Assembly: GCA_015227615.1 (NCBI GenBank)
Contig: JAALGZ010000010.1
Coordinates: 124,001 to 188,000, forward strand
Reading direction: 5' to 3'
Length of the DNA: 64,000 bases
DNA from: Labyrinthula sp. Ha
Taxonomy: Eukaryota > Sar > Bigyra > Labyrinthulida > Labyrinthulaceae
Shown piece after piece: positions 9,521-59,279 of the stretch. The stretch's first letter is position 1. The number at the start of each line of letters is the position of its first letter. The position numbers were made by a program, and so were the translations under genes. The notes beneath the pieces are model-generated. The model ran no database searches, was not told the origin of the DNA, and saw nothing but the letters and a program-made list of their open reading frames with translations.

Positions 9521-9687
9521 TGTCCACCCTATGTGGACTAGGCCGCAACGGTTCATTAATTATGATATATTAAGCAACAAGCCGTTTGACATATGTGTAA
9601 TATAACTAGCGGTTAAGACACCTAATTAAGATCTAAGTTTTGATATATAAAAGAAGACTTCAGATCAATCTACCTAGATATACGACA
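9521..9687 (+). repeat. 5' LTR
   Basis: It begins TGTCCACCCTATGTGGACTA and ends CGACA. The first bases contain the inverted repeat GTCCAC...GTGGAC, which can fold into a hairpin. Compared with the 3' LTR it differs at two adjacent bases in the middle, one in the TATA region and two near the end. Confidence 0.97.
9644..9653 (+). promoter_or_regulatory. Probable TATA box of the 5' LTR
   Basis: TATATAAAAG lies 35 bp before the LTR end. In the 3' LTR the same place reads TATACAAAAG. Transcription would start near the LTR end, leaving a very short R-U5. Confidence 0.5.
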
Positions 9688-9735
9688 TTATTCGAATAAC
9701 GTAAAAGTTATTTAGAGAGATACAAGATTACACTC

Positions 9736-9906
9736 ATGGCTCCTCCTACTAAACAGAAAAAAGACAAAGATCCTACCCAAGAAGCCAAAAAGCCTGATGA
9801 AAAAAGTGAAACGGCCGTTCAGGATGCCGTTACTCCGGACATGGATAAACCCGAGGAAGAGGATTTCATGGAGACACATAGCGATAAGGAAGAGAGTCTT
9901 AGGTAG
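9736..9906 (+). CDS. N-terminal Gag frame (56 aa)
   Basis: The first ATG of the element opens a 56-codon frame rich in Lys, Asp and Glu (starting MAPPTKQKKDKD) and stops at TAG 9904-9906. The next frame, one base back, is open from 9903 and continues into Gag with no ATG near its start. The two are therefore probably one Gag protein, joined by a -1 ribosomal shift near AGTCTTAGGTAG or separated by a single-base mutation in this copy. I see no classical slippery heptamer, so a mutation is at least as likely. Confidence 0.65.
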   Translation: MAPPTKQKKDKDPTQEAKKPDEKSETAVQDAVTPDMDKPEEEDFMETHSDKEESLR

Positions 9907-11414
9907 AGGAGGTTAAAACTTTTCTGGAGCAAGAGCACATTAAAGATATATCCTTGACTCCAGAATTACACTCATCAAACGCTTTGGCACTGGAACAAGA
10001 AGTTAGAAATCAGTTAGTGAATGTATTTAGCCCTACAGGCGCGGCTACTCAGTCCATAAAGACGCAACTTCGGTCTGTTTTAACAAGTGACGTTTTTATG
10101 GGAACGTTTGAGTCAAGAATGAAAAATATAGCAATAACTGTATACCAGGAACATGTGACCAAAAAGAACAATATTGGGGACGAAACATCTTTGACTTTAC
10201 CCGAAGTAACTGCAAAGAAAACAAAGAAGCCAAAAGCGCATAAGGAGAAAGCAAAGTCCAAAAAAACGACGCACGAAGTTGGAAGTATTCTCCACTCTGA
10301 TCAAAGTCACTCGACCATTGAAACTCCAAGTGATTCAGATACAGGAACATTATCCAGTGGGGTCACTAAGGCAAATCTTTCTGCCGTGGAATCAATTTCG
10401 AGACAATACGTTCCATTCGCCCAACCAGAGAAACTTAAAACTTTAGAAGGCACAAAAGTGGATGAATTTATGCATGAGTTTATGACTTTGAAGCAAAACG
10501 TAAAAGGAATCAAAATACAAACCTTCTTATCAAAAAAAGTTTATGATACACTCAGGGCAAAAGGAGTAAAAGTCCAAGCAACTAAGGCAGTTGAAGCGTA
10601 TTTGGAGAATAGAAGATCTAAGTTCAAAGTAAGGAACAAGAAAAATGCAATCAAGAGAATGAAAGATAACCTGAGATGGCCCAAGAATGTTATAAGAGGC
10701 GACGAACAGGTGGACAATTTCTTTGATGACGTTGATATGTTCTTATCGGATTTAACTCCAAAGGAAAAGAAGCTTCACTTTAAGAAGATTATCAAGATAA
10801 TGGTCAATGCTTTGCCTTCGTCTTTTGAGATATCTGCAGATGAAGTAAGTTACAACAAACAACTATGGTCTATGAAGGAATTCAAGGAGCTACTCTATTC
10901 AAGAAGTTTCGTGGCTGACAATCATAAACTTAAAGTTAGAGCCACTAAGCTAACAAGAATCGAGAAGCCTACGACCAGCAAGCCAAGTACTGATCTCAAG
11001 AAAATCAAGGTTATAAAGTTGAGGAGATTAGGTGATGAGGCACATAAGCTCCATCTCCATCTCAAGAACGTCAAGACAGCAGCTTTTGAAGCAGTAAATG
11101 GAATAGCGGATACAGGGTCGGATCGTAACATTGCGCCGTTATCCATCATTCCGAAGTACGCAAAGTCCGTGGAAGATCCGCAGTATGTATTCGAAATTGA
11201 ATTCCCTGACAAGACAAGATACCAGGTAAAAAAGGTGGTATTAGCAGACGCCATGTTGGTTCAAGGTGACTTACAGCTGTCAATGAACAAACAAAGGTTC
11301 TTTTGTGTTGATCATAGGAACTGGACAGAAATATTGATCGGTTTAAATACTCTGAACAAATTTGGATTAAGACTGGACCTTAAAAACGCACCAGAAGCCA
11401 AACCAAGAGCATAG
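9903..11414 (+). CDS. Gag with aspartic protease
   Basis: Open from 9903 to TAG at 11412-11414. The N-terminal two thirds are Gag-like: a Lys-rich stretch (KKTKKPKAHKEKAKSKK), a Ser/Thr-rich segment, then a helical basic region that includes TPKEKKLHFKKI. There is no CCHC knuckle. The C-terminal part is a retropepsin-type protease: ADTGSDRN with the catalytic Asp codon at 11109, and the closing motif ILIGLNTL about 75 residues later. The frame track starts at a TTG (9954), but no ATG lies near, so translation probably comes from the upstream ATG at 9736. The frame is the same as pol, separated only by one TAG codon. Confidence 0.88.
   Translation, partial: VEEVKTFLEQEHIKDISLTPELHSSNALALEQEVRNQLVNVFSPTGAATQSIKTQLRSVLTSDVFMGTFESRMKNIAITVYQEHVTKKNNIGDETSLTLPEVTAKKTKKPKAHKEKAKSKKTTHEVGSILHSDQSHSTIETPSDSDTGTLSSGVTKANLSAVESISRQYVPFAQPEKLKTLEGTKVDEFMHEFMTLKQNVKGIKIQTFLSKKVYDTLRAKGVKVQATKAVEAYLENRRSKFKVRNKKNAIKRMKDNLRWPKNVIRGDEQVDNFFDDVDMFLSDLTPKEKKLHFKKIIKIMVNALPSSFEISADEVSYNKQLWSMKEFKELLYSRSFVADNHKLKVRATKLTRIEKPTTSKPSTDLKKIKVIKLRRLGDEAHKLHLHLKNVKTAAFEAVNGIADTGSDRNIAPLSIIPKYAKSVEDPQYVFEIEFPDKTRYQVKKVVLADAMLVQGDLQLSMNKQRFFCVDHRNWTEILIGLNTLNKFGLRLDLKNAPEAKPRA
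11412..11414 (+). other. Single in-frame TAG between gag-protease and pol
   Basis: The gag-protease frame and the pol frame are the same frame. The TAG at 11412-11414 (context GCA TAG GAA) is the only stop between them, and the codons after it are open. This arrangement fits stop-codon readthrough as in some retroviruses, or one nonsense mutation in a formerly continuous polyprotein. No ATG for independent pol initiation is seen nearby. Confidence 0.7.
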
Positions 11415-14400
11415 GAAGTAGGCAAGAAGGAGCAACATATCACTTCTTTGGAGCCCAATCACTATATAAAACAAAGAGCTGTCCCAGGATTTGCGGAACA
11501 AAAGCCTATACTGAAGCTGGCCCAAGTTCTGGTGGTAAGTATCATTCGAAACGAAGTCTTGGATCTTGAAAGAATAAAGAAAAAGATGCTCGAGACAGAT
11601 TACACTCTCTTAGTTGTCCAAGTTTGCTATAAGAATATACTGGAAAGTAAAGATTTATTGGTGGAGAAAGGATACACGTTCATCGAGCAGCTTGTTATAT
11701 ATAGTCCGGGCCAAAAACCTACGGAAGGGTATTTTGTTGAGCACTTCGATACGAAATATTTAATTTACAGGAATAGCAAGACAAGTCAACATACTTTCAA
11801 GTTTCAAAAGGCTAAAGATGTTATTATTCAAGAATCTTTACTTAAGAAGGAAATATTTAACTTATGCAAAAAGATTCTCAATGTGCAGGATATAAAAATA
11901 GATATCTTAACTATACTCAATTCAGCAGTTAGGGCTCGCAAGCTAGAAATAACTCCTTTAAGCGAGATTGATACTGTTATAGCGGATGAACTAGCTGCTT
12001 TACTAGATAAACAGGAAGATATGAAGCCAATCCTTATAAAGAACATGCTGGACAGGATACCAGAAGAGTTCAATGAAAAAGGACTTGGAAAAGGAAACGT
12101 ATCTGAAGAACAAGAGAAACAGAATATTAACGATATGATTCAAAGGAAAGTTGAAGCCTGCGAAGCCGCCAAGGAAGAGAAGATTCTATTAGACAAAATA
12201 CTAAGATCTAATCTGGCTAGTTTTGGACTTGAACAAAGCAACGCGCGTATGTCATGCCTTACGCCCATAGAAGTCGACTTAATTCCAGGACACAAGGTTA
12301 TCAAATGCAGTGGATACCATTTTACTAACGAAGAGGAAGAATTTATTCAGAGAAAGTTCATTAGTCTTCAAAAAGCAGGAATAGCAGAACCGTCTAAGAA
12401 CCCTCTATGGGGATTCCCTATATTCGTAGTTCCAAAGAAAATAAAAACACCGAGTAATTGGGAGGATTGGAGCCCAGAAGAAAGGGGTAAATGGAACGAA
12501 GAGAATTTGTTAAATAGATATCGGATGGTAGCAAATATGGTTCGTCTAAACGATATAACCATACGAACCAGTCTTGATCTCCCGAACCTGGAAAGGCAAA
12601 TGACTTATCTTCGTGGAACAAAGTATTACCTTACCTTAGACATATTATCGGGATTTGATTTTTTAGCAACGAAACCTGAACACAGAAAGTATTTCACTCT
12701 TATTACCAGAAGGGGAGCATGGCAGCTTAACGGAGCCCCAATGGGCTGGGAAAATACGCCTGCACTCTTCTGCGAAAGGATAGTGAACGATATTATAGAT
12801 GATGAGAATGCAGGTACAAGGTTCTTCTGCAGACCCAAAACTGGATCTTTAGCTTGTCTGGACGACTTACTCCTTTATTCAGACACTTTTGAGGGGCTAA
12901 TGCACGTTTTGAAGGAAATGCTAGAGCGAGCTGCAAGAAGAAACATACGCTTTAATCTACGAAAATGCGAGTTTCTTGAAAAACCTATAGTATGGTGTGG
13001 ACGTGAAATAAGAAGCGGCTCATGGAATTTTGCTGAAAAATATTATGAAGCTATAATGAAGATGCCAAAGCCGGAATTCAAACATCAAGCAGCGCAACTT
13101 ATTTACTTATTAAATTGGCTTTCGCCAAATATACCGAAGTTTGCAGACCTCAGATTACCTTTTAGTGAGCAAGCAAATTTGCAAGGTAAGACTTTGAAGC
13201 AAGTGGGAAAAGAGCGCATAAGAATTGATTGGACTGATGAAATGGAAGAGGCCTATGCCGAAATAAAGATAGTGCTGACGCAATCAAGCAAACGTTTCTT
13301 ATCAAATTATGATGAAAAATCTCCTATCCTTTTATTTATAGACGCTTCGAAACACGTTTGGTCCTTGTCAGTATTCCAAGATGACCCGGATAACATTACA
13401 AACAACGTGCAGGAGTTAAAGCCAAGACCATTGTTATTTTTGAGTGGAAAGTTCAAGGTAAACGAGGCTAGATGGCACATAAGTACTAAAGAATTATATC
13501 CAGTGATCTACTCATTCGAAAGGATTGGTTTTATTCTGAAAACTCATCGAGCCGGAATATATTTGTATACCGACCACAAGGCTCTGCTGACTATCTTAAA
13601 GTCCCAGAAGAATGAAAAGAGAATTTATTGGGACCGCTTATACAGATGTAGTATCAAGTTACAGGAAGTTGAACTCACGGTTTTCCACTTGAGCTCCCGG
13701 GATAATTTTATAGCCGATATCTTGACTAGGTGGGCGCACGAAGCCTATGAAGATGAAGACGGCAAGCTCCTGGATCTCCGAAGGGTAAATCTCTGTATAA
13801 ATATAGAAGGGGGAGAGTTTAGGCTCGATCACGAGGAAACCACCAATACCCTGACACTGGATGAAGGAGATGTATCTTTGTTTAGTGGAGAACATTGGAC
13901 AGACGCTGAACGAGATATGCTCATTAAAGTAAGAGCAACAAGTAAACCAGAAGAGCATATAGACGCCTTTACGGCTAAAGAAACGGAGGTTCCCGAAGAA
14001 TTCCAAGGCCTTAGAGATGACTTGATAAGGCAACATGTGAGCTTCCTAAGCCCATATTTCGTGGATGATACGTGGAAACCTTTCACAGAAAAAGAATTAG
14101 TTGAAGCCCAAAAAACGCTGGGAGACGATAATAAATATATTGAAAAAGAAGGAATTTACTATATGAATCAGAAGAAAGTCATACCACCATCTTTAGTTAC
14201 CAGAGTTATTGTCGGATTACATATTTCAAGGGGACACACCTCCGAAAAAGAAGAACGATTATATCTTAAAGAATTTTATTTCGATGATTTAAAGAACTCA
14301 GATGTTGAACTCCTCCTTAGATCCTTTAGGCGAAGGTGCCTACACTGCTCTAGAACACCTAGGCTTATAAGAAGACCATACAATTTAACGCAACTTTCAA

Positions 14401-17129
14401 TGAATAGAAGGCAAATCCTCCATGCAGACTATTTGTATGTCAACACAGTTGGATACATATTAGTCGTATTGGATGGATGTACGAGGAAAACACAGTTAAC
14501 TTTTTCAGAAAACGCCTCATCGGAAGCAGTCGTGAACGCACTGTTGAAATGGAGGGGAGACTTTGGATTCAACCCATATTTTCTCCTCGTAACAGACAAC
14601 GCCTCACACTTTGCAAATGATCTAATGGAAAAACTTACTCGAAGCATCAGCTTCGAACAGTCCTTTAGTATAGCATATGCACCTTGGACTAACGGATCAA
14701 TAGAGACCACAAACTCAATTATTTTGAAGCATATGAGATCACTCATTTCACAATATTCTCTACACGAAACGCAATGGCCAAGCCTAATTCCTCTTTTAAA
14801 CCACATAATAAACAATAAACCCTCAGACAGAAGGGGAGGATATACGTCAAATGAACTTTTCTTATTCTATAAATTAGAAACGCCCTTATATCTCCAAGAT
14901 CCCAAACACTTCTCTTTAAAAATAGAAAAACAGCTGAAGGAACCAAAAGACATAAATAAGCTTATGCTGGAAGCCGAAAATATCATGAAAATACTTGATG
15001 AAAGATGTCGGAAAGCATATGAGCTCACAAGGATTGCCCGTTTAGCCGATAACAAGAGAAAGAGCAAGAACATTTCGAGAGTAATTCAGTTTTCCCCAGG
15101 AGACTATGTCCTGGTTAGCGAAAAAGGGACTATGGCAGCGCAAGAGAAAACTAGAATAACGTGGCATGGTCCATACCAAGTCACGGAAATTGTAAGCAGG
15201 GATATATATAAGGTGGAAAGTCTCATGGGAAAGGAAAAGATAGTTCACGCGACAAGAATGTGGTTCTATTCCACCAAGAAGCCGCTGGGAAATCATAAAC
15301 TCAGACAAGTTTTTATGCACAATTTTGATGCAGTTGAAGTGGATAGAATCCTAGACGTTAGACTAAGAGGAACTCAGAGGCCAAGGTTTGAAGCTAAAAT
15401 AAGATGGAGAGGCTTCGATAAAGAAGATGATGAATGGTTACCTTTAAAAAGTTTATACAACGATCTTCCTGAACTTGTTTTGAAGTATTTGGAAACAGCA
15501 AATATGCTTGAAGCAGAAAGAAGGGTTGTATATAATCGGATACTTAAATGGGAGCCAGGACCAAAGACAAAAAAGATGCGAAAAATAATTAAAGCAAATG
15601 AAGTAAAGATGAAGAACGACCAATCGGTGTATCCAAAATACACTTTGAGCTGGTATGTAGAAGAAAAGGAAGTCTTAGAAGCGCTGATTAAAAAGCCGGG
15701 ATGTGGAAACTATGATGCATATCTCAGGTCAGGAGCTTTATCTCGGCGTAACAAGCAACAATTATCTACACAAGTGCAAAAGATATTGAACGTGCAAGCA
15801 ATTGGACCTTTTCACGGTATGAACATAGATCCTAAGAAAGCCAGAAAGTTCCTCAGCGAAGAAATGGGAATACACAAGTTTACAAAAAGGCTGCCGGGAC
15901 AATTCATATCTAAACAGGGTCAAAAGGAGCTAATTGATGTGTTCAGAAGAGAACTTCACGAGCCAGATCTTCAGAAGACTACTATAATACCATATTTTAG
16001 AAGATTAGAAGATCCTACGCACTTGCGCATAGCTATCGATGAATGGGAAAAACCGGAATGCCGGGAGTTTTTCAAATCCAAGGGAATACGTTCAAAACAG
16101 GAGTTAAAAGAGATGCTGGCTAAATACGAAGTAATAGCCAATAAGCAGCTAAAAGATATAGAGCCCGAATTGGATCTTATCGCCAACTTGTATGGGGAAG
16201 ATGAGATTTTGTTCTATTCGCTTCATGCTCTGAAAACACTCTTGGATGATCGCTCAATGGTACCTAAGATTAACCTGGAACAGCAAAAGGTCAAACCTTG
16301 TTTTGCCACAGGAACTTTAGTCATATCATTTAGGATTCAGAGAAATATGCTAGAGGTTGAGGTACTAGAAGTTACTGAAAGCAAAAAGATTGTACTTTAT
16401 TATCTCGGGGGGAATGTGTTCAAGTTAGCAGGAACAGATCACCTTATTCATATGGATCCTCCAATGGCAAACCCTATTTTATGCAACGTCTTTGATTTGA
16501 CCTTTGATTCACCGAAAAAGAAGAAAAACAGATTTCATATAGTCTTAATGGATCCCCCTTGGGGCGTGGGAACCAAAGATCCGACACGTGGAGTTTCTTT
16601 AAAATATCCCACAATATCTTTAGAAAGATTCAATGCGTTGAAGTTTCCTCCTGATTTATTATTCCAACCGTCTTACTTATTTATCTGGGTTACAAACCAC
16701 AGTTACTTTAACACCATCACTTGGGCACAGAACAAGGGATATGCTTTGGTTGACGAAATAATATGGATCAAGAGACATAACTCTGGATCGCTAGCTGGAT
16801 CTTTAGGACGATATTTGCAGCATGCTCAAGAAACATGTTTAATCTTTATGTCTCGGTCTAAGTCAGGATACTTCCAAGATGTTTTTCAAGATATTAACCA
16901 ATTTCAAGGATCATCGCCAATAGTGACAAACCCGCAGTTGGAATCTTTCAAACCGCTCGAGCTTTATACGACGATAGAAGATACGTGGCCTCATATGAAT
17001 TACTTGGAATTATTTGGCACGCACAGGAATTTGAGACCTAAATGGACAACAGTTGGACTTACTTTGATTCCTCGTCTATCCTTAAACTATCTATTCTATA
17101 ACCATGAAGGCTGGGATACTCCTCTCTAA
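11415..17129 (+). CDS. Pol: RT, RNase H, integrase, chromodomain, MT-A70 methyltransferase
   Basis: Open for 1904 codons to TAA 17127-17129; residues below count from the TTG codon at 11448. Residues 22-110 resemble a degenerate MT-A70 half. Reverse transcriptase: LTLDILSGF (Asp 398) and CLDDLL (Asp 472-473; Cys replaces the usual Tyr). RNase H: Asp 632, Glu 682, TDHKAL Asp 709. Integrase: zinc finger His 925, His 930, Cys 964, Cys 967; catalytic Asp 994, Asp 1050, Glu 1086 (35 residues between the last two). Chromodomain 1294-1349 (KIRWRGF...EWLP). Unassigned 1350-1690. MT-A70 domain: DPPW 1702-1705, KGYALVDEIIWIK from 1763, HAQETCLIF 1792-1800, RNLRPKW 1860-1866. All catalytic residues seem intact. 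Family knowledge: MT-A70 enzymes methylate N6 of adenine in RNA or DNA. That it acts here on element RNA or target DNA is inference. Confidence 0.96.
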   Translation, partial: EVGKKEQHITSLEPNHYIKQRAVPGFAEQKPILKLAQVLVVSIIRNEVLDLERIKKKMLETDYTLLVVQVCYKNILESKDLLVEKGYTFIEQLVIYSPGQKPTEGYFVEHFDTKYLIYRNSKTSQHTFKFQKAKDVIIQESLLKKEIFNLCKKILNVQDIKIDILTILNSAVRARKLEITPLSEIDTVIADELAALLDKQEDMKPILIKNMLDRIPEEFNEKGLGKGNVSEEQEKQNINDMIQRKVEACEAAKEEKILLDKILRSNLASFGLEQSNARMSCLTPIEVDLIPGHKVIKCSGYHFTNEEEEFIQRKFISLQKAGIAEPSKNPLWGFPIFVVPKKIKTPSNWEDWSPEERGKWNEENLLNRYRMVANMVRLNDITIRTSLDLPNLERQMTYLRGTKYYLTLDILSGFDFLATKPEHRKYFTLITRRGAWQLNGAPMGWENTPALFCERIVNDIIDDENAGTRFFCRPKTGSLACLDDLLLYSDTFEGLMHVLKEMLERAARRNIRFNLRKCEFLEKPIVWCGREIRSGSWNFAEKYYEAIMKMPKPEFKHQAAQLIYLLNWLSPNIPKFADLRLPFSEQANLQGKTLKQVGKERIRIDWTDEMEEAYAEIKIVLTQSSKRFLSNYDEKSPILLFIDASKHVWSLSVFQDDPDNITNNVQELKPRPLLFLSGKFKVNEARWHISTKELYPVIYSFERIGFILKTHRAGIYLYTDHKALLTILKSQKNEKRIYWDRLYRCSIKLQEVELTVFHLSSRDNFIADILTRWAHEAYEDEDGKLLDLRRVNLCINIEGGEFRLDHEETTNTLTLDEGDVSLFSGEHWTDAERDMLIKVRATSKPEEHIDAFTAKETEVPEEFQGLRDDLIRQHVSFLSPYFVDDTWKPFTEKELVEAQKTLGDDNKYIEKEGIYYMNQKKVIPPSLVTRVIVGLHISRGHTSEKEERLYLKEFYFDDLKNSDVELLLRSFRRRCLHCSRTPRLIRRPYNLTQLSMNRRQILHADYLYVNTVGYILVVLDGCTRKTQLTFSENASSEAVVNALLKWRGDFGFNPYFLLVTDNASHFANDLMEKLTRSISFEQSFSIAYAPWTNGSIETTNSIILKHMRSLISQYSLHETQWPSLIPLLNHIINNKPSDRRGGYTSNELFLFYKLETPLYLQDPKHFSLKIEKQLKEPKDINKLMLEAENIMKILDERCRKAYELTRIARLADNKRKSKNISRVIQFSPGDYVLVSEKGTMAAQEKTRITWHGPYQVTEIVSRDIYKVESLMGKEKIVHATRMWFYSTKKPLGNHKLRQVFMHNFDAVEVDRILDVRLRGTQRPRFEAKIRWRGFDKEDDEWLPLKSLYNDLPELVLKYLETANMLEAERRVVYNRILKWEPGPKTKKMRKIIKANEVKMKNDQSVYPKYTLSWYVEEKEVLEALIKKPGCGNYDAYLRSGALSRRNKQQLSTQVQKILNVQAIGPFHGMNIDPKKARKFLSEEMGIHKFTKRLPGQFISKQGQKELIDVFRRELHEPDLQKTTIIPYFRRLEDPTHLRIAIDEWEKPECREFFKSKGIRSKQELKEMLAKYEVIANKQLKDIEPELDLIANLYGEDEILFYSLHALKTLLDDRSMVPKINLEQQKVKPCFATGTLVISFRIQRNMLEVEVLEVTESKKIVLYYLGGNVFKLAGTDHLIHMDPPMANPILCNVFDLTFDSPKKKKNRFHIVLMDPPWGVGTKDPTRGVSLKYPTISLERFNALKFPPDLLFQPSYLFIWVTNHSYFNTITWAQNKGYALVDEIIWIKRHNSGSLAGSLGRYLQHAQETCLIFMSRSKSGYFQDVFQDINQFQGSSPIVTNPQLESFKPLELYTTIEDTWPHMNYLELFGTHRNLRPKWTTVGLTLIPRLSLNYLFYNHEGWDTPL

Positions 17130-17140
17130 AAACAGGGGGA
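17128..17140 (+). promoter_or_regulatory. Polypurine tract
   Basis: AAAAACAGGGGGA directly precedes the 3' LTR and overlaps the pol stop codon. It holds a single pyrimidine and would prime plus-strand synthesis. Confidence 0.75.
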
Positions 17141-17307
17141 TGTCCACCCTATGTGGACTAGGCCGCAACGGTTCATTAATTATGATATATTAAGCAACAA
17201 GCCGTTTGACATATGTGTAATATAACTAGCGGTTAGTACACCTAATTAAGATCTAAGTTTTGATATACAAAAGAAGACTTCAGATCAATCTACCTAGATA
17301 CGCGACA
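17141..17307 (+). repeat. 3' LTR
   Basis: 167 bp, 162 identical to the 5' LTR. It ends CGCGACA, followed by catgta, the probable target duplication partner of caagta before the 5' LTR. Confidence 0.97.
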
Positions 17308-30477: not shown

Positions 30478-32286
30478 ATGGACACTGAGCTGGACATTTC
30501 TGAAGCCAAAGCTGAAGATACCAATATATCTCCTCCGACTATAGAAGAACTTGAGGAGACAGCGAAAACGCTAAAGAACTATAAAGTGCCTGGACCTGAT
30601 GGAATCAGAAACGAAATCCTAAAGAATAACAAAATAACACTGAAATACTTGCAGCAACTTGCAGAAGAACTATTTTTAGATCCAAGCGGCCTGAACAAAA
30701 GTGAACTTATATCTTTCTCTACTGGAAACATCATATTCCTATACAAAAAAGGAAACCATCAACTTCCTTCCAACTATAGGCCAATATCCTTGCTTAACAC
30801 TTCCTACAAACTAATCACTAAAATAATAAACAACAGACTAAAGAATACCCTGGAAAGAACAGTGGGAAACTACCAGTCTGGGTTTAGAGAAAATACAGGA
30901 ACTAGACAAAAAATTCAACTTCTCTTGAACCGCTGTAAACTCAGCCAGATGGAGAACTCGAAAACACTTTGTCTTTTCATAGACCTCAAAAAAGCTTTTG
31001 ACTCTTATAAACATCCTTTTCTTGAGCTAAACTTAAAAGAGAGAAAAGTTCCTGAAAGCTTTGTTAACATAATTCTTTACCTATATAAATATGCCGCAGT
31101 TCAAGTAAAGATAGGAAAACATATAAGTGACAGAGTAGAAATAAATAAAGGCGTGCTACAAGGTGACTCACTAAGTCCCATACTATTTGTACTTGCTCTG
31201 GACTCTCTGCTTCGAAGGATAATAAAGAAAATAAACTTAAACTTTCCAGAAGCAGAACTCTCCTTTCAAAACATTCTTGGATTTATTGACGACCTTTGTA
31301 TCCTGAGTAGAGATAGAAACATCTTGAAGCACTTTGTTCAATATGCAGAAGAACTCTCACAATTGTCTAGCCTAAAAATAAATACACAGAAAACTCAACT
31401 CATGGGAATAGTCAGGAGAAGAAAGCTCAAAGATAAGCTTTCGGACACTGCAATCCAACAACTGGTCAATAAATACACCTGCACTTCTTGTTCCAGAAAC
31501 TTCTCGTCAAAAGATGCCCTGGTAGGACATAAAGCTCAGTGTCTTGGACCGGGAACCGCGATAGTTCGCAGTAGAAAGGGCACTACAGCAGTTGCTGTAG
31601 CTGAACAAAACTTCCTCTATAACAATATCCCAATAGAAGGAGACATGGAAACCAACCTTGGAACCATCAAAGGAGTAAAAACCTTTAGATATCTTGGAGT
31701 GGATATAACAGCAACAGCTGAAACCCACGTTAATCCATTCGCTAGAATACGCGCTGCACAGAAAACTCTTCACAAACTGCAATCGATACTGAGAAATAAT
31801 ATGCTGACTGTCAGGAGGAAGAAGAACATAGTGAAAGCACTTGTGGTCTCAAAAATCCAATATGGCAGCGAGTTCTGGAACCTGGAAAACAAAGATACAT
31901 CTAAAGCCCTGAACAAACTCTCCAGAGATATAAAAAGAACTCTCCTTCAACCTAATCCAACACAACCACTTGAACATTCGAAGCAGACCAATATCCTCAA
32001 AGCCGGTGATATAAACATCCTAAAAATATTAAAAGAAAAACAAAAAAGGTGGCTGGAAACATGCACGACTGCAGAGATGGATATGGAACTAGCGGAATCT
32101 TCAAGGAAACTTGAAACATATCTTTTGCCACAAACTGCTACTCCAACTGAAAGCTTAAACATGCCTCTGGAACATATAAGTGAAGAGCTAGAGCACCATG
32201 AACCACGCCCTCCCCTTCACCCGCCACCACCAGGGGAGAACATGCTCGCCCACAGCATTTGGCACCACAAACAACACCTTAGCTGA
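30478..32286 (+). CDS. Non-LTR reverse transcriptase with C2HC zinc finger (602 aa)
   Basis: Intact frame of 602 residues. Reverse transcriptase blocks are in order: KVPGPDGIRNEILK, SNYRPISLLNTSYKL, LFIDLKKAFDS, GVLQGDSLSPILF, and the catalytic FIDD at residues 269-272 (codons 31282-31293), where Ile replaces the usual Ala. A Cys-x2-Cys-x12-His-x3-Cys finger follows at residues 335-355, inserted before a typical thumb block (FRYLGVDI). The end is Pro-rich (PPLHPPPPGEN). The true start is upstream and lost to a frameshift at 30411-30417. Enzyme core residues look intact, but without endonuclease this copy is not autonomous. Confidence 0.85.
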   Translation: MDTELDISEAKAEDTNISPPTIEELEETAKTLKNYKVPGPDGIRNEILKNNKITLKYLQQLAEELFLDPSGLNKSELISFSTGNIIFLYKKGNHQLPSNYRPISLLNTSYKLITKIINNRLKNTLERTVGNYQSGFRENTGTRQKIQLLLNRCKLSQMENSKTLCLFIDLKKAFDSYKHPFLELNLKERKVPESFVNIILYLYKYAAVQVKIGKHISDRVEINKGVLQGDSLSPILFVLALDSLLRRIIKKINLNFPEAELSFQNILGFIDDLCILSRDRNILKHFVQYAEELSQLSSLKINTQKTQLMGIVRRRKLKDKLSDTAIQQLVNKYTCTSCSRNFSSKDALVGHKAQCLGPGTAIVRSRKGTTAVAVAEQNFLYNNIPIEGDMETNLGTIKGVKTFRYLGVDITATAETHVNPFARIRAAQKTLHKLQSILRNNMLTVRRKKNIVKALVVSKIQYGSEFWNLENKDTSKALNKLSRDIKRTLLQPNPTQPLEHSKQTNILKAGDINILKILKEKQKRWLETCTTAEMDMELAESSRKLETYLLPQTATPTESLNMPLEHISEELEHHEPRPPLHPPPPGENMLAHSIWHHKQHLS

Positions 32287-35180: not shown

Positions 35181-37769
35181 ATGTCATTTAAAGCCCCATC
35201 AATTAAACAACAATTTGAGAACAGAAATGAAAGCAGAGAGTTCAGGATTCAATGGTTAATTTATTTCCCCTTCTAATTCATAGGTCTTTTGATGTGAATA
35301 TGAACCCAACTGAAAGGGAAAGGTTTGGAAAAGAAGCAGAAGAGTTTGTTCAACAAATGAATGTGAACAAAGAGATTATATTTTTGATGTATTCATATAT
35401 TTTGTTTTATTCTTTAGTTTTTACTTCTGCCCTTTAGATTTTATTGGAAAAAACCTTTCTATTTGGTTTGAAAAGTTTCCAAAGGTTAAAATACTTCAGT
35501 TTTTTCTTGTTTTGTTTTTATTTTAGGTTTTTATATTGTCATTTAAACACCTTGAATTTTATTGGAATGGAAAAAATAAAACAAAAACTGAATATTCAGT
35601 CACTGGGGTATATTTTCTATTTTTTTATGTTTTAGCTTTAAATTGTGCAATGTTCCAGTAGACAATTCTCTTTCCCAGTTTTTAAAAGGACAAAACATAA
35701 AGGCAATAAAGTAAACTTCTTCTTATTTATGTTAAATATTAGTTTCATGAAAAATAATATCAAAGAAGAAACATTTGTTCAAATATTGGAAGAAGTTTCA
35801 AAAATGAATACTTTGATAAGTGTTTCGTATTCTCTTTTCTTTTCTTTATCTCTAGTATTCAAGAAGATGACTTGAGGATTGATAACGCAGAAATTACCGC
35901 TGTAACAAAAGGGTGTTTGGAAAATTTACCTTTTTTGTTGAAGTTTATGTTTATTTTTGTTTTGTTTTGACTTTTAGTTTGCGAGTTGGTGAAATAAATA
36001 TTGAAGAAAACAAAGATGAAGTTCAAGATTTACTTGATAATCATTCTTCTCTTTTATTATTTGAACTTGGAAAGAATATTTTCAATACTAAAAATTTAGA
36101 AGAAAGACTTAAACATTATGTTTCAACAGTGCTAAAAGATAAATACAATAGAACAACTCTTTTAAATGAATGTCAAGTTCTTTTTATGGGTGATGGAAGA
36201 GTTGGAAAAACTTCTACCATAAGAAGTTTATTTGACAAAAGTTTTTTACTTGATAATAATTCAACTTTAGTTTTGAATGATATTGATATATTTTCAATAA
36301 ACCCAGATAATTATAACTGGAACTCAATATCTAAATATAAACTAAGTGTTCAGAGAGTTAAAAATAGTCTTCCCCGTGTTGTTTATTATGATTTTGATCC
36401 TAATCAAGAAATTGAAACAAACTATAAACTTGATTTTGAAAAAGAACTTCTTTCAAGAACAGTTTCTGATGAAAAGTTTATTGAACATATGAAAACAAAT
36501 AATTTTGTTTTTGCTAAAAATGATATTTATTTTCGGGTTTATGATTTTGGTGGACAAGAAATATTTTCTTCTGTTCATCATATTTTTATGAACTCAAATT
36601 CTCTTTATTTTCTAGTTTTTAATATGACAAAAATATCTCAAAATGATTTATTTAGATTAAAATTTTGGTGTGAAAGTATTTTAAAAAATACAGAAAAAGC
36701 ACCAGTTATTTTTATTGGTACATATTTAAAAAGATATAAAAGAAAGAATATTAAAGATACAAATCTAGAAATAATACAAAATAAACTTCAAGACTTTGTT
36801 GAAAATCTTTCTTCTGAGTTAAATATATTGAAAAATGATATGAATATTTTCTTTCCTATTGAGAATTCAAAATTAGATTCTCAAGAGAAAAAAGATATAA
36901 AAGATAAAATAAAAAGTCTTGTTTCTGGAGCAGCTGGAATAAATAAAGAAAATTTTCTTAACTTTAGAATAGGAACTCCTTGGCTTCTTTTCCTTGATAA
37001 TTGTCGAGAACAAACAAATATTATGACTTTGAAAGAATTTGAAGATAAATCTTATCCTTGTGGTTTTGAAGATTGGGAAGTTGAAAGAATGCTTGAAATA
37101 TATTCAAAAGCTGGTTTAATTTGTTATTTTCCTTATTTAGATTTGGAAGCAGATGAAAACTTTATATTTTTTGCACCTTCTTATCTTGCTCAAGCTTTAG
37201 GTAAGTTTATCAGAGATCCAAATTTTCATGAACTTGCATTTAGAATTCCAAGTGATAAATTTTCTTTATATAGAATTTATGTTGATAAAGGAAAACTAAA
37301 TAAAGAACTTTTTAATATTTTATTAAAAGAATATTCTGATAAAGAAAAGAAATATATTTTAAGTTTGGCTTTGAAAAGTTTAGTTTTGATACCTGTAGAA
37401 AAAGAAAATGATGTTTTTATTCTTCCTGAATTACTTCCTGAACTAAAGAGAGCAAAAATAAAACCTTCTTTTAAAACTGATATTAAAATAGTTTTCAAAA
37501 GTCTTGTTCGTTTGGCTGTTTTTGTAAAAGTTGTCTTTTTATTTCTTAAGGATGAAGATATTCTTGAATCACTTTTATTCAAAGGATTTTCAAGAATTAT
37601 TTTCAAAAACAAAAGAATAGTTGATATTTTTTTAAACACTGAAACTGAACTTAGTTTTACTCTTGTTCAAGGAAATAATTTAGAATGGTTAAAACAAAAT
37701 GTTGAACTGATTTCAGAAGAACTACAAGAAGTTAAAGAAAATGAAGTAATATTTGAGAACAATAGCTAG
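35181..37769 (+). CDS. Roco-family GTPase with leucine-rich repeats (8 exons, 792 aa)
   Basis: Exons: 35181-35254, 35284-35388, 35418-35498, 35527-35607, 35636-35710, 35743-35826, 35856-35942, 35978-37769, giving 793 codons in one frame. All seven introns are 28-35 bp, GT...TAG, T-rich and phase 2. Exons 2-7 are all multiples of three and each encodes about one leucine-rich repeat (for example FVQILEEVSKMNTLISVS). Then comes a Roc GTPase domain: P-loop GDGRVGKTS at residues 267-275, switch II DFGGQE at 385-390, and a weak G4 (GTYLK instead of THLD). COR starts near residue 530. There is no kinase domain. Family knowledge: Roco proteins are dimeric GTPases acting in signalling. Stop is TAG. 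Confidence 0.92.
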
Positions 37770-57809: not shown

Positions 57810-59279
57810 ATGTCACATACGCTTAAGCGGGCTCGTACAAGGCCTCTTACTCGATGCCGCGTAAATTCTCTCAAGGAAAAAAGTAGAATGCAAGGGAATT
57901 GCTCATCTTCTGTGCCAAACTTGCACAATTTTTTGGGTTATGATCAAGCGTTGACAAAAAAACAGAAAACACCTGTTTTATTGATTACAGATATTGGTGC
58001 AGATATTGATGATACTCTTGCTTTACTTACTTTACTTAGTTGTGATCTATTAGAGATTAAAGCTATTGTTACTTCAGTCGGTAATGGAGAAGAACGCGGG
58101 AGATTAACAAGAGGATGGTTAAGAAAACTTCGTTTACCAGATAGTTTACCGATATTTCCTTATTCAGATCATTTAGAAGCTGCTTGTTCTGTACCTGAAA
58201 ATTTTCCTTCAATTGAAGAGTCAAATTTAGGTAATGTTGAAGAAACTCCACAAAATATATTAAACCTATGCAGGGAAATAAAAAGAGAATATGGAAAGAA
58301 GCTTGTTGTTATTGGAATTGCTGCATTAACTCCATTATGGAAAGCAATTAAGTTAGATGCGCAAAATATTATTCTAGGCACAGTGAGAAAACTGTACCTG
58401 CAAGGAAATTATCGACTGACAAAGGGTAGGTTAAAGCCTTCTGATAAAGCGTATAATTTTAAAAATGATATGAAAGCAGCAGAAGGAGTAACAAATTTTT
58501 TTCAAGATACGACTCCAATAACTTTTCTTGGTAAGAACGCAGCGTATAAAATAAACATTAGAAAAGAGAATTTTAAGTTTTGGCACAATGTTCTTTATGC
58601 TTCTGATTTAAAAAGACATAAAACAACTGAATATGATGATGTTGGAAAAGTTGATTTGCTTGATATGGCTTATAAACAAATGAATGGTTTTCGATTGGGA
58701 AATCCAACATATTTTGCTGAAATTTATCCAGATTCAAAAAAATATTTTGATGATAATAGTTTATTGTTTTTCTTTCAAATGCCTGATTCTGGTATTTTGA
58801 GTCACCCATATGATCCACTTGTTGCTTTGGCATGTATTGAAGATCTAGAAACCGAAAAGCGTCAAAGGGAATTAAGCTTTCCATTATTAAGAAGGGCTAG
58901 AAGTGACATTCCCTTTAGTAATTCAACAAACAAGAATATTTCAACTGCACTTCGAAGCATACGGCGAAGTTCTCAACATCTTAGAAAGCAAAAAAATCTA
59001 GAAAGTCGTTTTGGCGAAGAAGCTAATGCTTTAAAAGGCAGGTTGTCTAGAGAAAATAAATTTTATGCCATAGTCCCACGGGAGGATATGGTTTTGTTTG
59101 ATAGAAAGAATATACAGGTGAGTGGAGTTAGGCACGAAGGAATCGGAAATGATGGAGTACATCCAGAAGGGGTTAGTAATGTTAATTTAACACATGCGAG
59201 GTTAATTGAGGCTGTTGCGGTTGGGCTACAGTTGAATTCTAAAGCGCAAAAAGATTTGGGTTGGATGAAGTTTTGTTGA
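57810..59279 (+). CDS. Nucleoside-hydrolase-family protein (489 aa)
   Basis: Single intact exon from ATG to TGA. Residues 55-68 read VLLITDIGADIDDT, the calcium-binding DxxxDxDD signature of inosine/uridine-preferring nucleoside hydrolases, which split ribonucleosides into base and ribose. The region NFKNDMKAAEGV (about 217-228) matches the family's substrate-loop block, and PYDPLVAL (Asp 335) the C-terminal metal-binding block, where the usual His before Asp is Tyr 334. Residues 1-50 are a basic extension (KRARTRPLTRCRVN) that is not part of the fold and might be a targeting signal. The C-terminus, from about 345, is longer than in bacterial enzymes. It is the only intact host-like gene in the right third of the window. 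Substrate unknown. Confidence 0.88.
   Translation: MSHTLKRARTRPLTRCRVNSLKEKSRMQGNCSSSVPNLHNFLGYDQALTKKQKTPVLLITDIGADIDDTLALLTLLSCDLLEIKAIVTSVGNGEERGRLTRGWLRKLRLPDSLPIFPYSDHLEAACSVPENFPSIEESNLGNVEETPQNILNLCREIKREYGKKLVVIGIAALTPLWKAIKLDAQNIILGTVRKLYLQGNYRLTKGRLKPSDKAYNFKNDMKAAEGVTNFFQDTTPITFLGKNAAYKINIRKENFKFWHNVLYASDLKRHKTTEYDDVGKVDLLDMAYKQMNGFRLGNPTYFAEIYPDSKKYFDDNSLLFFFQMPDSGILSHPYDPLVALACIEDLETEKRQRELSFPLLRRARSDIPFSNSTNKNISTALRSIRRSSQHLRKQKNLESRFGEEANALKGRLSRENKFYAIVPREDMVLFDRKNIQVSGVRHEGIGNDGVHPEGVSNVNLTHARLIEAVAVGLQLNSKAQKDLGWMKFC

Follow-up and report, generated by a model that had tools for sequence, protein, structure and literature searches.

Relatives of two parts of a DNA-adenine methyltransferase joined in the pol frame of a Labyrinthula chromovirus

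Why should the pol frame of a Ty3/gypsy retrotransposon continue past its chromodomain into a methyltransferase of the MT-A70 family, and would such an enzyme act on RNA or on DNA? The question is raised by an element in a stretch of 64,000 nucleotides from Labyrinthula sp. Ha (GenBank contig JAALGZ010000010.1, positions 124,001 to 188,000), which is called the window here and corresponds to C2:124001-188000 in our genome coordinates, C2 being the contig that carries it. The main result is that relatives of two parts of a DNA N6-methyladenine (6mA) methyltransferase are joined in this element: as judged from sequence relatedness, the catalytic subunit AMT1/MTA1 and the subunit p1 of the MTA1c complex have relatives fused in cis within one chromovirus pol. 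An initial annotation of the same DNA had placed MT-A70 motifs in a stop-free pol frame and called the domain complete, and both statements were confirmed: DPPW, KGYALVDEIIWIK, HAQETCLIF and RNLRPKW follow in this order, with DPPW beginning at 16551 (residue 1702 counted from 11448), and the Pfam family MT-A70 (PF05063) matches at 76 bits over model positions 1-171 of 172 (cut-off 23.9, E 4.5e-21), i.e., almost over its full length. It was also right in seeing a chromatin reader and an adenine-methyl writer domain in a single Ty3/gypsy polyprotein; the pair of long terminal repeats (LTRs), the protease motif DTG, the p1-like Myb domain and the repetition across the genome were not mentioned there. 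The element consists of the following parts, with the Pfam scans of the window's open reading frames (ORFs) having been run piecewise.

9521..9687, + strand: 5' LTR of 167 bp with TG...CA ends
9688..9699, + strand: perfect palindrome of 12 bp at the primer-binding position, which in our reading replaces a recognisable tRNA-type site
9954..11414, + strand: gag-like ORF of 486 aa, closing with TAG at 11412-11414
11109-11117, + strand: aspartic protease motif DTG near the end of gag
11415..17129, + strand: open frame of pol, in the same frame as gag with one TAG between them
12570..13004, + strand: reverse transcriptase (RVT_1, Pfam, 49.2 bits) with the active-site motif CLDD
13314..13667, + strand: RNase H (RT_RNaseH, PF17917, Pfam, 53.5 bits)
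14412..14684, + strand: integrase core (rve, 27.7 bits, below the curated cut-off of 32.6)
15336..15494, + strand: chromodomain (Chromo, PF00385, 29.6 bits, cut-off 25.1)
15636..15836, + strand: p1-like Myb domain between chromodomain and MT-A70, from profile and linker matches
16533..17060, + strand: AMT1/MTA1-like MT-A70 domain (Pfam), with DPPW at 16551-16562
17130..17140, + strand: polypurine-rich stretch preceding the 3' LTR, a polypurine tract by position
17141..17307, + strand: 3' LTR, 97% identical to the 5' LTR in a pair of 167 bp

Compared with the sequences in the PDB, the MT-A70 domain of the window is closest to the ciliate MTA1/AMT1 proteins (117 bits, as against 67 for METTL3 and 34 for METTL14), and the domain of a second family, represented by copy L001, yields 136, 109 and 40 bits for the same three. 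Of 43 rows of genomic or EukProt origin, 42 contain a P[TVI]RG block behind the catalytic motif; the AMT1 rows shown contain PTRG or PSRG, and the METTL3 and METTL14 rows are without the block. A tree of 60 rows, comprising the 43 sequences mentioned (nine of which, L030-L038, are 0.8-kb stretches with the element context outside the view), 15 AMT1 proteins, METTL3 and METTL14, separates METTL3 plus METTL14 with branch values of 95/93 and places the window inside a clade of 17 rows (98/90). As counted in 44 rows by METTL3 numbering, the sites whose functional roles we presume from that enzyme are conserved at D395 (42), P396 (44), W398 (41), Y406 (42), E481 (43), K513 (44) and N539 (43).

The segment preceding the MT-A70 domain points to the same complex. 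A profile built from nine element segments between chromodomain and MT-A70 found p1 as the top match in the PDB (67.7 bits, E 5.4e-18), followed among the other Myb proteins by c-Myb with 32 bits. Used alone, the linker of L001 retrieved p1 as the only significant PDB match (143 residues, E 3.9e-17), and the linker of the window had p1 as its best match (26 bits, E 5.3e-5). The profile matched all 24 element rows, 15 of them outside its own input, and none of 272 controls, namely 120 cellular AMT1 proteins and 152 other ORFs of the window. The general Myb model of Pfam exceeded its cut-off in L019 only (28 bits), L001 reaching 19.5 bits; of six segments of 70-72 aa submitted to Pfam, three remained without match, two gave Myb matches below the cut-off, and that of the window gave an unrelated match below the cut-off. 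A strict motif search had recognized the Myb block in 10 of 24 rows, the window not among them, and is superseded by the profile search. When the genome was searched for p1-like sequences with L001 as query, 134 matches at E<=0.001 were obtained among the 150 of 234 candidates that were scored; 88 of these precede a listed MT-A70 match on their own strand by 0.74-1.5 kb, as against none with such a match on the opposite strand; among the remaining 46, five are accompanied by MT-A70 in fetched sequence. At this threshold the query misses the window copy, though its relatives L017 and the copy on C78 are listed. In addition, L019 and L001 show a retroviral-type aspartic protease match (RVP) between Myb and MT-A70, rather than before the reverse transcriptase, with 20.1 bits in L019 (cut-off 20.7) and 17.3 bits in L001; if real, this would be an unusual domain order for the respective clade.

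The remaining parts identify the element as a Ty3/gypsy chromovirus, with an LTR pair and one frame leading from reverse transcriptase over RNase H and integrase to the chromodomain, the rve match being below the Pfam cut-off; Integrase_p58_C is likewise below its cut-off (23.6 bits, cut-off 27). After the TAG at 11412-11414, pol consists of 1904 codons without stops, of which the ORF program reports 1893 aa from a TTG at 11448. No Pfam match was found in the 486-aa gag-like ORF by the piecewise scan. The element is flanked by CAAGTA and CATGTA, which agree in five of six letters, and a perfect 5-bp repeat is absent. Gag and pol share one frame, divided by one TAG with GA directly after it, in the window copy, L010, L011, L015, L025 and L026, representing four lineages, and this in-frame stop at the border looks like a case of stop-codon readthrough, as judged from its position in the sequence; in L019-L024, L027 and L028, gag-pol is a single long frame with no dividing stop. 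A perfect palindrome of 12-18 bp directly follows the 5' LTR in 15 of 16 elements examined (the exception being L016, with L017 and L023 uncounted), its letters varying between lineages; palindromes of at least 10 bp occur at 144 of 5000 random window positions. Roles of the palindrome in priming or RNA dimerisation are guesses. By eye, a short inverted repeat opens the LTR just within the TG, at 9521-9540 in the window and also in L010, L012 and L025.

The element is not alone in its genome. A search of the 50.8 Mb genome with the MT-A70 domain, in which 150 of 354 candidates were scored, returned at least 150 matches, all 150 scored ones lying above the family cut-off and including one stand-alone host gene (L008). 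Of 20 loci fetched around such matches and selected partly by long frames, 17 show paired LTRs (94-100% identical), and in 14 an open frame that includes MT-A70 runs to 1756-2660 aa. Piecewise Pfam scans of eight other elements recorded MT-A70 in all eight, reverse transcriptase in all seven whose N-terminal half was scanned, rve in all eight at E<=0.01 (six above the cut-off) and the chromodomain in seven (six above the cut-off), L019 being without it. Starting from the reverse transcriptase side, with 150 of 562 candidates scored, 68 of the 150 scored matches are followed on their own strand, at a distance of 3.4-4.8 kb, by a listed MT-A70 match, and none has one on the other strand. From the 82 matches without a listed MT-A70, 15 Ty3/gypsy copies were fetched in sets of six and nine, and all 15 carry MT-A70 sequence, although in L049, L055 and L061 the match is partial or broken; note that these copies were picked mostly by long frame or nearness to the window, and the value is not extendable to decayed copies. 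By its sequence, the window element belongs to a large radiation of Ty3/gypsy elements that combine a chromodomain with Myb and MT-A70 domains. Its own family occupies three full-length places as identified by LTR pairs, namely the window and the following two.

C2:367679-375457: copy L017, with broken pol
C78:185292-193081: copy L047, with an open frame of 1904 aa and an MT domain 97.5% identical to that of the window

Protein searches with the MT-A70 domain of the window gave six matches, all of them EukProt gene models that probably come from this species, since their MAKER-type scaffold names resemble that of a model identical to the host AMT1. A EukProt gene model 1817 aa long shows 98% identity across the query region and has the identical Pfam set. 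A scan of viral_contigs contained no relative of the domain, which is not evidence of absence in other eukaryotes. Some similar MT-A70 matches form same-strand pairs with a spacing of about 7 kb (C132:835172/842412, C1:1636119/1643108 and C62:563456/570271), perhaps as tandem copies of elements.

The stand-alone gene L008 represents the host AMT1 (249.6 bits to MTA1), with the labyrinthulomycetes Mucochytrium and Hondaea as its nearest named relatives (65% identity over 62-63% of the query; 81/84 in the tree). Used as query, it gave 160 bits for the best of 122 scored matches after itself. The MT domains of the elements are not recent copies of it, because the identities are 29-41%. The host also possesses two p1-like genes, L064 (43% identity over 130 aa) and L066 (46% over 112 aa), for which no MT-A70 was matched within the 1.5-1.7 kb fetched downstream.

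The ratio of non-synonymous to synonymous substitution (dN/dS) was calculated for the MT-A70 domain by the Nei-Gojobori method in 18 pairs, six of which were dropped for saturated dS; the values range from 0.036 to 0.268 in all 12 computable pairs, of which four are rough with dS >1.4 and four use rows from L030-L038. The comparison of the window with L047 involves 34.5 synonymous and 6.5 non-synonymous changes (dN/dS 0.043), and that with L017 results in 0.111; for the reverse transcriptase, three of eight pairs were computable and gave 0.05-0.16. By these sequence comparisons, the MT-A70 domain is under purifying selection. Distances in the trees of reverse transcriptase, which holds copies from this genome only, and of the MT domain are correlated with Spearman coefficients of 0.756 for 20 copies and 0.712 for 14 lineages (0 of 2000 permutations each), and this correlation favours an old co-inheritance; with values of 66/48 for the all-element branch, the domain may have been acquired once or several times. 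The Myb-MT module seems to have been long retained and inherited alongside the reverse transcriptase, because the identity of the latter to that of the window is only 30-37% in distant lineages.

What would the module do? The fusion of relatives of cellular DNA-adenine methylation enzyme parts to an integration machinery raises the possibility that the elements put marks on DNA of their own. The reading we favour, and put forward tentatively, is that a clade of chromoviruses encodes a self-contained, MTA1c-like writer of DNA 6mA, composed of a chromodomain as reader, a p1-type binder and an AMT1-type catalyst, which stamps the element's own copies with permissive 6mA against silencing. Gag-Pol would bring the Chromo-Myb-MT module to the element's complementary DNA (cDNA) or to the new provirus, where it would methylate adenines, probably at ApT; the 6mA-marked new copy would then resemble an active gene and be helped to escape silencing. 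The copy would look active because AMT1-type 6mA accompanies transcribed, permissive chromatin in other eukaryotes, being linked to H3K4me3-associated chromatin according to PMC12695648, which also states that p1 and p2 are needed for AMT1 function. The domains, their order, their repetition, the mostly intact catalytic residues and the purifying selection form the basis by sequence. The parts of this reading deserve different degrees of trust: the anatomy and kinship of the element are virtually certain, a DNA adenine methyltransferase activity of the module is probable, the view of the module as a DNA writer taken as a whole is reasonably likely, and self-marking that favours the element is possible and held with reserve. 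The initial annotation had proposed that the element marks its own RNA or its target DNA; of these two options the evidence now leans to DNA, because the MT-A70 domain is closest to AMT1/MTA1 and its neighbour domain to p1, so that the proposal gains partial support.

Several points weigh against the favoured reading. The start of gag near 9900 appears interrupted in the window copy when viewed by eye beside EukProt P0006. R536, which we take to be a contact of METTL3 to S-adenosylmethionine, is kept in 38 of 44 rows and replaced by T in six, including the window and L047; the H538 site is poorly conserved, with N in 20 of 44 rows and in all 15 AMT1 proteins, as are the N549 and Q550 sites across the 44 rows. 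DPPW is replaced by DPAW in seven, DPPY in three and NPPW in one of 43 rows. The deep branches of the tree are weak (84/90 for the cellular AMT1 and 66/48 for the branch of all 43 rows), and AMT2/5, AMT6/7 and METTL4 are outside the tree; AMT1-like is thus the best reading of the element domain by sequence, with a placement that is not settled for these two reasons. A structure model of the last 504 residues (mean predicted local distance difference test score, pLDDT, 68.9) resembles MTA1 and METTL3 about equally and therefore leaves DNA versus RNA undecided, and it is no test of the Myb part because of pLDDT values of 30-54 over residues 1-80. The comparison with MTA1c covers two of its four subunits, MTA1 and p1. 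Finally, 6mA of Trichomonas is not enriched in transposons, as PMC12695648 reports. As a separate observation, DPAW is the form found in the family L001-L007, where others have DPPW.

Among the alternatives, a non-catalytic use survives best, in which Myb-MT anchors Pol on chromatin that bears 6mA or is bound by AMT1, and so guides target choice, or competes with the host complex. Chromodomains are targeting modules, and the position of Myb-MT behind one, the altered catalytic motifs of some families and the T at R536 in the window family would fit such a role; pure binding would not need the conserved D395, K513 and N539, however, and we consider this explanation unlikely. Still less probable is that the domain serves as a writer of RNA N6-methyladenosine (m6A) that methylates the genomic RNA of the element for packaging, stability or evasion of RNA sensing, given that MT-A70 is nearer to MTA1/AMT1 than to METTL3 in both families compared, that the fused neighbour domain is p1-like, and that the PDB matches, obtained by searching in pieces only, name no METTL3-type RNA-binding part. 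A one-off capture of a host METTL gene, which the initial annotation had allowed for, or an assembly artefact has practically no chance and no point found in its favour, being refuted by the copy counts, namely at least 150 scored MT-A70 matches, MT-A70 in all 15 Ty3/gypsy copies fetched without a listed match (three partial) and an EukProt model with the same Pfam set, and by a single-copy host AMT1 that is at most 41% identical to the other matches among the 122 scored.

Retrotransposons with captured DNA methyltransferases (DNMTs) are already known, those found described being cytosine DNMTs and, in DIRS elements, Dam-like enzymes (PMC5890265). According to this paper, KnitGypsy-Dnmt3 and the Symbiodinium elements SymbioLINE-Dnmt and SymbioDIRS-Dnmt3 likewise represent captured DNA methyltransferases with many copies and purifying selection, KnitGypsy-Dnmt3, an LTR element of the Gypsy type, carries its enzyme within the Pol frame, and self-methylation of retrotranscribed DNA was proposed there; retrotransposon DNMTs are capable of de novo CG methylation, and retrotranscribed DNA may be among their substrates. 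The enzymes of these three are cytosine-5 DNMTs, whereas the window element contains an adenine-type MT-A70 near AMT1 together with a p1 relative and a preceding chromodomain; no DNMT family was detected at E<=0.001 in the ORFs of the window, MT-A70 being found instead. The DIRS elements share with the window element an adenine-methyltransferase domain inside a retrotransposon, but contain a tyrosine recombinase and a bacterial Dam-like enzyme (PMC5890265) instead of MT-A70. Other chromoviruses likewise have LTRs and the same order of reverse transcriptase, RNase H, integrase and chromodomain, to which the element adds Myb and MT-A70 past the chromodomain and the palindrome at the primer position. 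Compared with the MTA1c/AMT1 complex (MTA1, MTA9, p1, p2; PDB 7f4l, 7yi8, 8xyl), the element contains relatives of the catalytic subunit and of p1, but fused in a viral-type polyprotein behind integrase and chromodomain, and separate cellular AMT1 and p1-like genes coexist in the genome. Our literature searches, with bioRxiv and most subscription papers outside their scope, retrieved no earlier description of MT-A70 in an LTR element and none of chromoviruses that combine an AMT1-type MT-A70 and a p1-like domain, nor is MT-A70 in an LTR element described in the passages obtained from PMC13297926, PMC11258239 and PMC11441545.

Elsewhere in the window, a second reverse transcriptase ORF (30478-32286, RVT_1 118.8 bits), a Roc/Ras-type GTPase ORF (35913-37769) and an ORF with a weak nucleoside hydrolase match (57810-59279) were noticed.

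According to a survey from 2025, covering 231 genomes and transcriptomes of eukaryotes, MT-A70 families are relatively static and the AMT1 pathway targets endogenous genes (PMC12695648). A chromovirus lineage carrying relatives of the AMT1 catalyst and of p1 under purifying selection would be an exception to this static and gene-directed view. For enzymology, the elements supply two MTA1c parts that nature has already fused, and they open the testable question of adenine methylation as a shield of a selfish element against silencing. If the favoured reading is true, their many copies may make them a major source of 6mA in the host, and selfish DNA would have turned to its own use a mark that has been regarded as gene-directed and static in evolution.
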